This document shows positions 33,110 to 40,440 of a stretch of 64,000 nucleotides of DNA, one piece after another (the stretch's first letter is position 1; each line of letters opens with the position of its first letter). Source of the stretch: Ignavibacteria bacterium (lineage in GTDB: Bacteria; Bacteroidota; Ignavibacteria; Kapaibacteriales; UBA961). A model generated the notes under the pieces. It searched no databases, was not told the origin of the DNA, and saw only the letters and a program-made list of their open reading frames with translations. A program made the position numbers and the translations under genes. The DNA is taken from assembly GCA_947491315.1 (NCBI GenBank), contig CANLII010000002.1, positions 62,001 through 126,000 on the forward strand. Direction: 5' to 3'.

Positions 33110-35239
33110 ATGAAGACATTACTACTGACAATTTTCCTATTCATACTGTTTCAAAGTGCATCCTCACAGTATATTCCTTCCATCCTCCTACCTGGTCATC
33201 AGGAGGAGAAGCATGAGCTTTGTTCTCATGCGCATGAAATGCATCAAAAGATGAGTGAAAGACCACTGGAGTCCATCAATGAAATTGATGTATTGACATA
33301 TGATGTTTTTATGGATTGGAGACTACCATTTGCCACGCCTGATTCCGTGCTTCCGAGTTATACCTATTCCGGAAAAAACGAATTGACTTTCATTCCTCTT
33401 TCAAGCAGTACAACAATCAAACTTCATGCTACTTCCATGACAATTGATTCAGTAACATTAGATGGAACGAAGCTTGCCTCCATTGCGATCATTCAGCCAT
33501 CGAATGGACATTGGAGTATAAATGTTCCGAGTGCTTTATCGGTAGATACGCATTCATTGCATATTTGGTATACCTATAAAGGTGATGCGAAGAAAGGATT
33601 CTACTATTATCCCAAAGGAATGTTTGTCCGAAAATTCCAGGGACTCGATTCCAATTTTGTCGAAGAAGACCTCGCCTATGTGATGAATCAACCGGAAGAT
33701 GCTCGGTATTGGATGCCATGCAATGACAGACCAGATGATAAAGCAAGAGCTCGAATCACGATTCGCGTTCCTTATGACTCCACGCTTAGTGACACTAATA
33801 ATATACGCGTCACATCCAATGGAGATTTGACGGAACTTGTAATCGGTAGAATGAATGGCATTCCATCCTACAGAGATTATACATTTTATGATACCACGCT
33901 CATTCCAACATATCTCATGGTTGTGAATGCATCACGATTCGTGGACTTTACCCTTTGGGCCAAAGTCCCTAATTCGAATGATTCCATTCCGATTTACAAT
34001 TATGTTTGGAAGAAGGATTTTGATGGAACAAAAACAGATGGTAGCGAATACAATGCAAAATATGCTTTGAGTTTTACGCCTAGCATGATCACCGGTTATA
34101 TTCCATTATTTGGAAAGTATCCATTCAAAACATATGGACATACATCGGCTCAACCATTTTGGGCGGGTGGCATGGAACATCAGCGTATGAGTACAATCAA
34201 TCGCACATGGCTAAGAGGATTCTCCAACAATGGATTGGCGCATGAAGTTATGCATCAATGGTTTGGCGATTTGGTCACATGCAAAACATGGGGTGAAATC
34301 TGGCTCAATGAAGGAGCCGGTACTTGGGGCGAAGCTTTATGGTATGAAACATGGGGAGGATATCCCGAGTATATATCCATGATGCGTTCAAAAAGAAATG
34401 ATTATTTCCGCATCAATGGAAATGTCTTGCAACCACCAATTTTCGGCATTCCAATTGAAAATGTTTTCAATTATGCCACCACCTATGCAAAAGCAAGTTG
34501 GGTCTATCATATGCTTCGCACAATGCTTGGTGATGATGTATTCTATCCAGTATTACGCACATATTTTAATCGATATGCGTATGGCAATGCCAATACAGAG
34601 GAATTTAAGAACATATTCAAACAAGAAGCTCCGAATCCACCGATTGACTATGATGTATTTTTTGATCAATGGCTCATGAAAAGAGGACATCCCATCGTGA
34701 AATTTTCTACTCTCAGAGAGCATGTCAATGCGCAAAATGAGACATATATTCACTTTGTGATCAATCAAGTACAAGCAGGCAATACTATTCCGGCAATCTT
34801 TCAATTCCCTCTTTCGATTCGATTCATAGGTACAACAGATACAGTCATGTATCGCGGAATTGTCAAGAATTCAAGTCATGAAGGATTCATCAAACTTCAA
34901 TCTCCCCTTGTCAAAGCAATCATTGATCCGAATTCTGATGTTTTGATGGAGACAGACACCGTTTCTGGATCATATCTCTCCATTGAAGAATCAATGCCAA
35001 CCATGCAAGCATATATTCGTGGATTTGGAGATGAGCAATATCTTTCAATCAAAAGTGGAATCGAAGAGCACGTTTCCATCATGATTCATGATATTCGAGG
35101 ATCCTTGATTCATTCTGACAATATATCAATAGCTTCAACTGCATTGATTGAAAAGAAACTTCCACACTTCAGTTCAGGAATGTATATTGTATCCATTCGA
35201 TCCACTCAAGGAATGATCAGTTTGCGCTATCAGCTATAA
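33110..35239 (+). CDS. M1 family metallopeptidase with T9SS-type C-terminal sorting domain
   Basis: GGMEHQRMS, GLAHEVMHQWFGDLVTCKTWGEIWLNEGAGTW (HExxH-x18-E); C-terminus VSIMIHDIRGSLIHSD...FSSGMYIVSIRSTQGMISLRYQL. Confidence 0.92.
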   Translation: MKTLLLTIFLFILFQSASSQYIPSILLPGHQEEKHELCSHAHEMHQKMSERPLESINEIDVLTYDVFMDWRLPFATPDSVLPSYTYSGKNELTFIPLSSSTTIKLHATSMTIDSVTLDGTKLASIAIIQPSNGHWSINVPSALSVDTHSLHIWYTYKGDAKKGFYYYPKGMFVRKFQGLDSNFVEEDLAYVMNQPEDARYWMPCNDRPDDKARARITIRVPYDSTLSDTNNIRVTSNGDLTELVIGRMNGIPSYRDYTFYDTTLIPTYLMVVNASRFVDFTLWAKVPNSNDSIPIYNYVWKKDFDGTKTDGSEYNAKYALSFTPSMITGYIPLFGKYPFKTYGHTSAQPFWAGGMEHQRMSTINRTWLRGFSNNGLAHEVMHQWFGDLVTCKTWGEIWLNEGAGTWGEALWYETWGGYPEYISMMRSKRNDYFRINGNVLQPPIFGIPIENVFNYATTYAKASWVYHMLRTMLGDDVFYPVLRTYFNRYAYGNANTEEFKNIFKQEAPNPPIDYDVFFDQWLMKRGHPIVKFSTLREHVNAQNETYIHFVINQVQAGNTIPAIFQFPLSIRFIGTTDTVMYRGIVKNSSHEGFIKLQSPLVKAIIDPNSDVLMETDTVSGSYLSIEESMPTMQAYIRGFGDEQYLSIKSGIEEHVSIMIHDIRGSLIHSDNISIASTALIEKKLPHFSSGMYIVSIRSTQGMISLRYQL

Positions 35240-38208: not shown

Positions 38209-38778
38209 TTAAACGCGATTGATATATTCCACGGTGACCGAATCGCCATCCGTACTGATCTTTGTGATGCTTCCGAAAGCAATGTGGATGTCGAATGTTC
38301 TTTGATATGGAATCTCAAGCACATATGACAAAATTGCACGAATAACACTCGCATGTGTAGAGATAACGACTGTTTTATAATTCTTTGTGATGATATCCTC
38401 AAAGAAGTCTTTCACTCGCAAAATCAGTTGTGTATAAGACTCACCTTCGGGAACAGAATGAAATACAACATCGCGCATCCATTCCTGAAGCTCCACTTCA
38501 TCGATCTCTTCCCATTTTTTCCTCTCCCAAACACCGAAATTCAAGTCAGATAATCGATCATCCTGCATTGCAGGCCTTTTACTGATGAACTCAGCTAGCT
38601 GGATACAACGACGGGTCGGACTCGAAAAATACACCGCATGCATTTTATCGGGCACAAGCTTCATTGTATCCGAAGCTTCTTGCAAAAAGCTTGAAGCTAC
38701 AGGAATTTCAGTTTGACCATAGCAAACATTATTATCAACTGCTACGGTTGTATGTCTTAAGAAATAGAGATCCATCAT
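38209..38778 (-). CDS. Histidine phosphatase family protein (CobC/alpha-ribazole phosphatase-like)
   Basis: YFLRHTTVAVDNNVCYGQTEIPVASSFLQEA; SPTRRCIQLAEFI; DLNFGVWERKKWEEID; ISTHASVIRAIL. Confidence 0.8.
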   Translation of the reverse strand: MMDLYFLRHTTVAVDNNVCYGQTEIPVASSFLQEASDTMKLVPDKMHAVYFSSPTRRCIQLAEFISKRPAMQDDRLSDLNFGVWERKKWEEIDEVELQEWMRDVVFHSVPEGESYTQLILRVKDFFEDIITKNYKTVVISTHASVIRAILSYVLEIPYQRTFDIHIAFGSITKISTDGDSVTVEYINRV

Positions 38779-38856: not shown

Positions 38857-40185
38857 TTATTGCAGGTGCAGAAGCAATTCATTCTTTGTAGTCTTTGGTG
38901 CATTCACATGAATGCCATATAATCCTTGAGGAAAATCTTGCATCGAGAATTGGAAAAAATGACCAGACATGGCTCTTGACGCCACTACTTTGCCATGTGC
39001 ATCAATCACTCGTATATCAGCATTCGCAAGATTCATTTCTGAAGTGATTGTACATATACCTTGGTTCAAAGTAATTGAGATGCCTGAATCAATTTTATCT
39101 TGAATTGAAGTCAAACCAATATCAAATATGGCAATTGTCGAATCAGATGCATATTCTCCTTTTTTATACGCATTGCAAGCCCAAAGTTTGCCATCAATTA
39201 TTGCCAATCCTTCAGGTTTTCCAGCCGGTTCCAAAATTCCCAAAACATCACCACTTATGTAAGAAGCAATACGAATATCTGAAGCATATGTAGAAACAAA
39301 TACTCTATTCGTTATGGTGTCAATCACAACTTCTCGAGGACCATCATAACCGGTGGTTCCGGTTGCATATCCCGGTAAAACTGTATTTGTGGCCAGATTG
39401 ACTGGAATAATCTCATGAGAACCATTCATGACAGTAAGCGCTAGTTGATCCTGAATGATAAAGAAATTGCCTGTATCACCGAGATCAAAGAAATCAGTCT
39501 TGAAAGGCAATGCTGAAGATGGAGTCGGTAAGAGCCTATACAATTTGGAATTTTTTCCTCCAAATGTTCCCTCGCAAAGGATAGCAAATTCCACTTCACC
39601 TAGCAGATTTCGGAAAGGTTTAATCATTTGAGGGTTAATCCCGACTTCGGTTTCCGCAATGATTTTTTTGTCCGAAATGCTATACAGACCGAAGGTTCCA
39701 TTTTGAGTGAATGAAGTTTTATGAGACATTGCAATAACCGTTTGTTCTTCACCACCCAAGTTTAGGGAAAGAATACTTATCGCAGTGATTATTGATTGTG
39801 GATTTGGAAGAGTCAATATGGTGGAATCGATCAATTGCTGTGATGTCACATCATAGACTTCAATAGAATTTCCATTGGGATTATAGAAATTCGTCTTCGT
39901 GAATGCAGGTCTGAAAGGAAGGGAGAAATATGTGTGTGTGATATCTCTGCGAGCAATAAGATTTCCAGATTGTGCGTGATACTTCAACCAAGAAGCGGGT
40001 AATTCACCATTATTGGGTTCATAGATACCATCAAAGTCGATATCATTTCCATTACAAAACACATGGACCGTATCATCAACTTGATGAATGGAAAGGGGTT
40101 GAAAACCTGTTGGAAGAAGCTTCGGCACTTGTGCTTGGAGCACGGAAGAAGTGAGAAGCAAAGCAGCGAGGATGAACTTTTTCAT
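38857..40185 (-). CDS. Secreted beta-propeller (YncE/BtuG-like) protein with T9SS-type C-terminal domain
   Basis: Signal peptide MKKFILAALLLTSSVLQAQ; repeated propeller-like strands (NSIEVYDVTSQQLIDS, PREVVIDTITNRVFVSTYAS, PEGLAIIDGKLWACNA); C-terminus ADIRVIDAHGKVVASRAMSGHFFQFSMQDFPQGLYGIHV; preceded by a cobalamin riboswitch. Confidence 0.75.
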   Translation of the reverse strand: MKKFILAALLLTSSVLQAQVPKLLPTGFQPLSIHQVDDTVHVFCNGNDIDFDGIYEPNNGELPASWLKYHAQSGNLIARRDITHTYFSLPFRPAFTKTNFYNPNGNSIEVYDVTSQQLIDSTILTLPNPQSIITAISILSLNLGGEEQTVIAMSHKTSFTQNGTFGLYSISDKKIIAETEVGINPQMIKPFRNLLGEVEFAILCEGTFGGKNSKLYRLLPTPSSALPFKTDFFDLGDTGNFFIIQDQLALTVMNGSHEIIPVNLATNTVLPGYATGTTGYDGPREVVIDTITNRVFVSTYASDIRIASYISGDVLGILEPAGKPEGLAIIDGKLWACNAYKKGEYASDSTIAIFDIGLTSIQDKIDSGISITLNQGICTITSEMNLANADIRVIDAHGKVVASRAMSGHFFQFSMQDFPQGLYGIHVNAPKTTKNELLLHLQ

Positions 40186-40190
40186 GAGAT

Positions 40191-40222
40191 ATTCCTTGCG
40201 ATTGCCTCGAAAGAAAAGGAAT
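40191..40222 (-). promoter_or_regulatory. Candidate Shine-Dalgarno-sequestering hairpin of the riboswitch expression platform
   Basis: Minus strand ATTCCTT-N18-AAGGAAT; the 3' arm contains the AAGGAA SD 5 nt before the ATG at 40185. Confidence 0.5.
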
Positions 40223-40327
40223 TATCATGATGCCCACGCATGATGTGGAGTATATCATGCATGGCAAAGCCATAAAACCATCTCATTCGTGGAGCGCGAA
40301 TGTTGTCTTAAAGACAATGATGTAAAA

Positions 40328-40440
40328 ACACGAGGCAGGTTTCCTGACTTTCCATCAAAGATGGTTCACAGTTGCGCCACAGTACCCGATTTTCACGGGT
40401 TTCCCTATTCTCCTCTCAAAAGAGGCACCTCATGATGTAA
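40328..40440 (-). promoter_or_regulatory. Cobalamin riboswitch aptamer
   Basis: Minus strand GGTGCCTC...AGGGAAACCCGTGAAAATCGGGTACTGTGGCGCAACTGTGA...AGTCAGGAAACCTGCCT; the last element is the B12 box. Confidence 0.93.

Follow-up and report, generated by a model that had tools for sequence, protein, structure and literature searches.

The stretch of DNA analysed here (the window) spans 64,000 nucleotides of an Ignavibacteria bacterium whose genome (G000) comprises 2.30 Mb in 49 contigs. On the minus strand of the window, a cobalamin riboswitch aptamer (RF00174, 40317..40447) precedes a gene with an ATG start for a 442-aa secreted protein (38857..40185), which is very likely a circularly permuted, seven-bladed BtuG-like propeller with a T9SS tail, and the next gene downstream on the same strand encodes a CobC-like histidine phosphatase (38209..38778). 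In cmscan, the aptamer covers the full-length model (model positions 1-189 against minus-strand 40447-40317, 75.7 bits, E 7.7e-17, with a gathering score of 31.5 bits), and the 2.3 Mb genome has only one other RF00174 match. The ORF for the 442-aa protein begins 131 nt downstream of the aptamer, and both the aptamer and its distance from the start codon are retained at three related loci (L003, L004 and L005).

Between the aptamer and the start codon, two local hairpins on the minus strand are kept in relatives. First, the hairpin CATTCG-CGCTCCA-CGAATG (40284..40302) folds at -4.0 kcal/mol just past the aptamer, and its CATTCG/CGAATG stem is identical in the window, L003, L004 and L005, with a single varying loop position. 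It could be P13, the kissing-loop partner of L5, a role that is inferred and that we put forward only as a possibility. Second, a hairpin at 40191..40222 pairs the Shine-Dalgarno-like AAGGA (ATTCCTT with AAGGAAT); its place before the start codon is unchanged in relatives while the stem covaries, reading CTCCTAT/ATAGGAG in L004 and GACTCC/GGAGTC in L005. As the stem is preserved with differing sequences, this hairpin is consistent with an expression platform by which the ribosome-binding site is closed, and we regard that as its likely role. The minimum-free-energy fold of the whole leader was rejected, as it gave a single long structure without the aptamer fold, and the local covarying hairpins were used instead. 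B12-dependent switching at this locus is inferred from the general behaviour of this riboswitch class.

The N-terminus of the 442-aa protein (MKKFILAALLLTSSVLQAQ) resembles a signal peptide (residues 1-19, 40129..40185, minus strand), as read from the sequence without a predictor. A BtuG-type lipobox cysteine or lipoprotein export signal was sought in the N-terminus (MKKFILAALLLTSSVLQAQVPKLL), and no cysteine was found. At the other end, a T9SS type A C-terminal sorting domain (38860..39087, minus strand) was matched by TIGR04183 at 24.7 bits (cut-off 23), with Pfam Por_Secre_tail (PF18962) slightly under its cut-off (23.3 bits, cut-off 27); the TIGR04183 scores are higher in orthologues (44.8 bits in L058, 35.0 in L043 and 29.9 in L049). 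Scans with Pfam and NCBIfam returned no named domain in the protein besides this tail. An AlphaFold2 model (pLDDT 70, pTM 0.65) predicts seven blades, the last closed by the N-terminal strand, followed by a separate C-terminal beta domain that corresponds to the tail. The model is of moderate quality, was built from four sequences, and had its blades assigned by us from the strand list. Foldseek agrees with a seven-bladed propeller, with G-beta and other generic propellers ranking top; considering that its alignment runs in chain order and cannot favour a permuted BtuG, it was used for the fold only.

An earlier sequence-only reading had described a cobalamin riboswitch ahead of a secreted, T9SS-type propeller, and this observation was confirmed: its coordinates were right, with the riboswitch extending 7 nt further upstream. 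The RF00174 check was passed on the minus strand, the sorting-domain claim held by TIGR04183 (if not by Por_Secre_tail), the signal peptide without a lipobox held on reading the sequence, and the propeller fold was supported by the model and Foldseek. The same reading had offered the resemblance to BtuG, the B12-capture protein of gut Bacteroides, only as an analogy; it is now upheld as homology by profile search. The circular permutation, the order-wide family and the BtuH-like partner with a T9SS tail, all described below, had been missed.

For homology, a single-sequence phmmer search of the PDB gave only BtuG-like matches (E 0.19-0.52), which were treated as a lead, and the matter was settled with a family profile (A1, 25 members) searched against all PDB sequences. 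The top nine matches were all BtuG or BtuG-like chains, the first being BtuG1 (8blw_B, E=2.6e-24), and the profile also matched the solved T9SS C-terminal domains 8glj and 8glk. The 442-aa protein is thus homologous to BtuG. The best-conserved part of the family is the equivalent of BtuG blades 1-4, and the residues shared with BtuG are E204, G205, G235, T237, N239, S255, P282, R283, P323, E324, G325 and N337. (Residue numbers from alignments and from the model start at K2, the translation of 38857-40182; adding 1 gives the numbering of the 442-aa protein.) In BtuG2, blades 1-4 provide all 13 hydrogen bonds to B12 (PMC10404256). The N-terminal half resembles BtuG blades 5-7 only weakly.

The two halves of the propeller match BtuG in swapped order. 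The blades equivalent to BtuG blades 5-7 come first (39622..40107, minus strand; BtuG profile columns 236-377), followed by those equivalent to blades 1-4 (39118..39600, minus strand). In HMMER, the match falls into two segments, with A1 columns 199-375 aligned to BtuG1 residues 47-227 and columns 31-198 aligned to residues 217-377. The second of these segments is weak by itself (E 0.025 to 0.63); the first half searched by itself aligned to BtuG profile columns 236-377 with a probability of 96 and E 3.7e-9. Co-linear BtuG-like proteins taken from other parts of the phylum gave the same split, order-swapped match in 10/10 cases. As plain HMMs tested with single sequences could not tell the rotations apart, the rotation test was run profile against profile: the profile was cut and rejoined every 15 residues and compared by hhalign with a profile of co-linear BtuG-like proteins. 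The native order scored 191 over 155 columns, and there was a single optimum, for rotation at residues 184-199, with a score of 254-255 over 300-303 columns. With the second half held constant, the three N-terminal blades scored 246.7 in their true order, compared with 217-226 for the five other orders, 213 for a duplicated half and about 192 for shuffled columns. In the merged alignment, the BtuG C-terminal motif NYxVxGxV...VGxNPxxI leads straight into the BtuG N-terminal motif LxEGxF. In addition, blade 2 of the model, which is short (residues 98-124), coincides with BtuG blade 6, which is two-stranded in BtuG2 (PMC10404256). We conclude that the 442-aa protein is very likely a circularly permuted BtuG homologue in which a C-terminal T9SS tail replaces the N-terminal lipid anchor; with similar confidence, the end of BtuG blade 7 is fused to the start of blade 1 at about residues 187-200, and the new termini lie between BtuG blades 4 and 5. 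This places the anchoring end about half a turn round the propeller from the lipid anchor of BtuG.

The protein is matched in 49/60 relatives in the order, some of the weak matches being BtuG-like lipoproteins. A survey of 298 genomes of the phylum placed the permuted form at full length in this order, in one further genome of the class, and nowhere else; matches in the rest of this set were confined to columns about 199-365 and fell in BtuG-sized proteins. RF00174 lies directly upstream on the same strand in 37/39 scanned loci with the permuted gene, and was not detected at two orthologous loci (L046 and L047). At 12 loci the next gene encodes a TonB receptor (cluster c1). One c1 receptor matches TIGR01779 (E 3e-48), and the best match of the c1 profile among solved structures is BtuB1 of the BtuB1G1 complex (E 1.2e-92). 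At five loci, the operon also includes a BtuH-like partner family (A6); among solved structures it comes closest to the BtuH domain of BtuG1 (E 1.8e-5), and its members have a T9SS-like tail of their own.

We also sought RF00174 in 12 genomes of the order that have no clear permuted gene. It was present in 8/12, in 8/8 of these upstream of a co-linear BtuG-like protein, with lipobox-like cysteines in the N-termini that were read and, in 4 of the 8, with the start of a BtuB gene following within the sequence examined. In contrast to the permuted family, the order's BtuG-like lipoproteins (A2) match BtuG co-linearly (E 1.4e-47). As a co-linear BtuG-like protein stands behind the riboswitch in every such case, the permuted, T9SS-tailed protein and the ordinary lipoprotein occupy one and the same regulated slot. 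This context, namely the riboswitch linkage, the BtuB1-type receptor and the ordinary BtuG that occupies the slot when the permuted gene is missing, supports the BtuG idea independently of the profile search. The proposal that a different anchoring route serves the same function is supported overall: the tail and the missing lipobox back the route, with B12 binding and surface attachment inferred.

In the window genome itself, the BtuB orthologue is on a separate contig (G000:C1:10789-12660, E 2.4e-123); no RF00174 match was found near it, and the btuB adjacency seen at 12 related loci is absent here. The genome encodes a T9SS component, SprA (a 2343-aa frame scoring 885.9 bits, cut-off 200). 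It also encodes three proteins with B12-binding domains and one BtuF-like protein, and a search for CobS found none, which together fit a B12 user that depends on import. The CobC-like phosphatase downstream of the propeller gene (His_Phos_1, E 4.2e-30) scored 157.4 bits with TIGR03162, slightly under the cut-off of 162.9, and so failed the equivalog test. The order riboswitch gene, CobC-like phosphatase, FtsW/RodA is retained across the genus, and the phosphatase may share a transcript with the propeller gene. Considering this score and the undetected CobS, reading the neighbour as a sign of corrinoid assembly was dropped. The second riboswitch of the genome (34.9 bits, at L053:7024-8751(-) on G000:C12) is followed by a DUF6580 membrane protein and then by an A6 BtuH-like protein with a T9SS-like tail. 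As BtuC (PF01032) gave only a below-cut-off match in this genome, the DUF6580 protein is a possible candidate for the inner-membrane B12 importer.

Overall, the 442-aa protein is very likely a B12-repressed surface protein for B12 capture, with B12 binding, surface attachment, complex formation with BtuB and the direction of regulation all inferred, in the absence of binding or expression data. When cellular B12 is low, the riboswitch would leave the ribosome-binding site accessible, allowing translation of the protein. The signal peptide would direct it across the inner membrane, and recognition of its C-terminal tail by the T9SS would take it across the outer membrane. Outside the cell, the folded propeller would capture corrinoids and pass them to a BtuB-type TonB receptor, as BtuG does in Bacteroides.

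The rival that survives best is release, in which the T9SS cleaves the tail and the propeller is freed or carried in vesicles, acting as a diffusible or vesicle-borne B12 scavenger and not as a BtuB lid. This remains possible. T9SS type A cargo may be either attached or released, btuB is not adjacent in the window genome, and extracellular vesicles of B. thetaiotaomicron incorporate proteins of uptake operons (PMC12751083). Against it, a BtuB1-type receptor is the next gene in 12 related loci, and the exchange with ordinary BtuG in the same slot favours a receptor-bound role. A second rival, that of a B12-regulated surface protein which shares only the BtuG fold and does another job (an adhesin, an enzyme, or a carrier of cobalt or another ligand), is very unlikely. 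In its favour, YncE-like propellers have varied roles, and a BtuG-like lipoprotein of the window genome (L052) lies away from any riboswitch, so members of the family need not all bind B12. It is opposed by the near-constant riboswitch linkage, the BtuB and BtuH-like neighbours and the BtuG-like replacement in the slot, and by a similarity that is strongest in the equivalents of the B12-contacting blades of BtuG2 (PMC10404256). Finally, that the swapped order is a blade-repeat artefact of a native-order propeller in shifted register, as might be suspected considering that propeller blades look alike and that the second HMMER segment is weak by itself, is very unlikely in view of the higher score of the true blade order over five others and a duplicated half, the score maximum at the predicted cut with near full-length coverage, the identical two-segment order in all ten BtuG-like proteins and the direct joining of the BtuG C-terminal and N-terminal motifs.

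Returning to the capture protein, a bolder reading is that the B12-capture surface has been rebuilt on the T9SS throughout an order of Bacteroidota: BtuG was permuted, apparently as its anchor shifted from a lipid at the N-terminus to a T9SS tail at the C-terminus, the BtuH-like partner gained a tail, and the BtuB lid would hinge from the opposite side. Taken as one joint claim, we think this a little more apt to fail than to hold. BtuG2 is anchored N-terminally near blades 1 and 7, with the linker acting as the hinge, and the widest opening is around Asp236 in blade 5 (PMC10404256). The tail of the permuted protein exits at the boundary of blades 4 and 5, which would put the tether on the widest-opening side if the pose on BtuB is the same; this hinge geometry is inferred. 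The opposite-side hinge is suggested because the edge of the lid where the new anchor would sit is free in Bacteroides BtuBG and opens widest there. Either the lid would hinge the opposite way, or the tether would have no hinge role.

Compared with BtuG1, BtuG2 and BtuG3 of Bacteroides thetaiotaomicron (PDB 8blw, 3dsm, 8bmx, 8p97), the protein shares the seven-bladed propeller (here predicted), cobalamin riboswitch control, the linkage to a BtuB1-type receptor (in relatives) and the motifs LxEGxF, GDTxN, PR and PEG. It differs in its permutation (cut between blades 4 and 5), in lacking both a lipobox and a lipoprotein export signal, in ending with a T9SS tail, and in often being doubled to about 750-800 aa in relatives. 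Because the lipobox and blade-order tests fail, we do not file it as BtuG proper; it is a permuted BtuG homologue that very probably works like BtuG, a function that is inferred. BtuH (BtuH2, PDB 7biz, and the BtuH domain of BtuG1) is resembled by the operon partner A6, a protein distinct from the propeller, which unlike BtuH has a T9SS-like tail. With T9SS type A cargo, the 442-aa protein shares the signal peptide and the C-terminal sorting domain (TIGR04183/Por_Secre_tail), in a genome that encodes SprA; no B12-capture T9SS cargo was described in the open-access literature searched. The DUF5074 or co-linear BtuG-like proteins of the order (L037, L140, L150-L157) belong to the same fold family and occupy the riboswitch slot in genomes without the permuted form, but are co-linear with BtuG, carry a lipobox cysteine (in those read) and lack a T9SS tail.

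BtuG, the high-affinity B12-capture lid of gut Bacteroides, has been reported to be a surface lipoprotein found in Bacteroidetes alone (PMC6143338). In open-access titles and abstracts on permuted BtuG, on cobalamin riboswitches with T9SS, and on T9SS with B12 or BtuB (subscription papers being outside this scope), the present form was not found. A permuted form that swaps with the ordinary one amounts to a natural experiment on the BtuBG lid, in which B12 binding, with blades 1-4 kept, is uncoupled from where the hinge lies. Riboswitch-controlled nutrient capture would join the known uses of the T9SS, and a family left unnamed by the databases searched gains a testable function. An environmental order thus seems to hold B12 at the cell surface in a new way, with surface location and B12 binding both inferred.

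Some further genes in and around these loci are recorded here. Within the window, 33110-35239 on the plus strand encodes a protein resembling M1-family aminopeptidases, whose T9SS tail is weak (TIGR04183, 20.8 bits, below the cut-off). A co-linear, DUF5074-like BtuG-like lipoprotein without a riboswitch is present at L052:222-1271(-) (G000:C2) and at L147:5467-6591(+) (G001), where it sits after apparent alternative complex III genes, an arrangement kept in the genus. In one family of the order (L063, L065, L067, L071, L072, L038 and L068), a PAP2-family protein stands beside the permuted gene in place of btuB, joined there in most of these loci by a repeat protein of about 1060 aa that is sortilin-Vps10-like. 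Tandem double permuted propellers (747-809 aa) occupy the riboswitch slot at L066, L070, L037, L044, L045 and L049, and may either give each chain two B12 sites or be left over from a permutation that arose by duplication.
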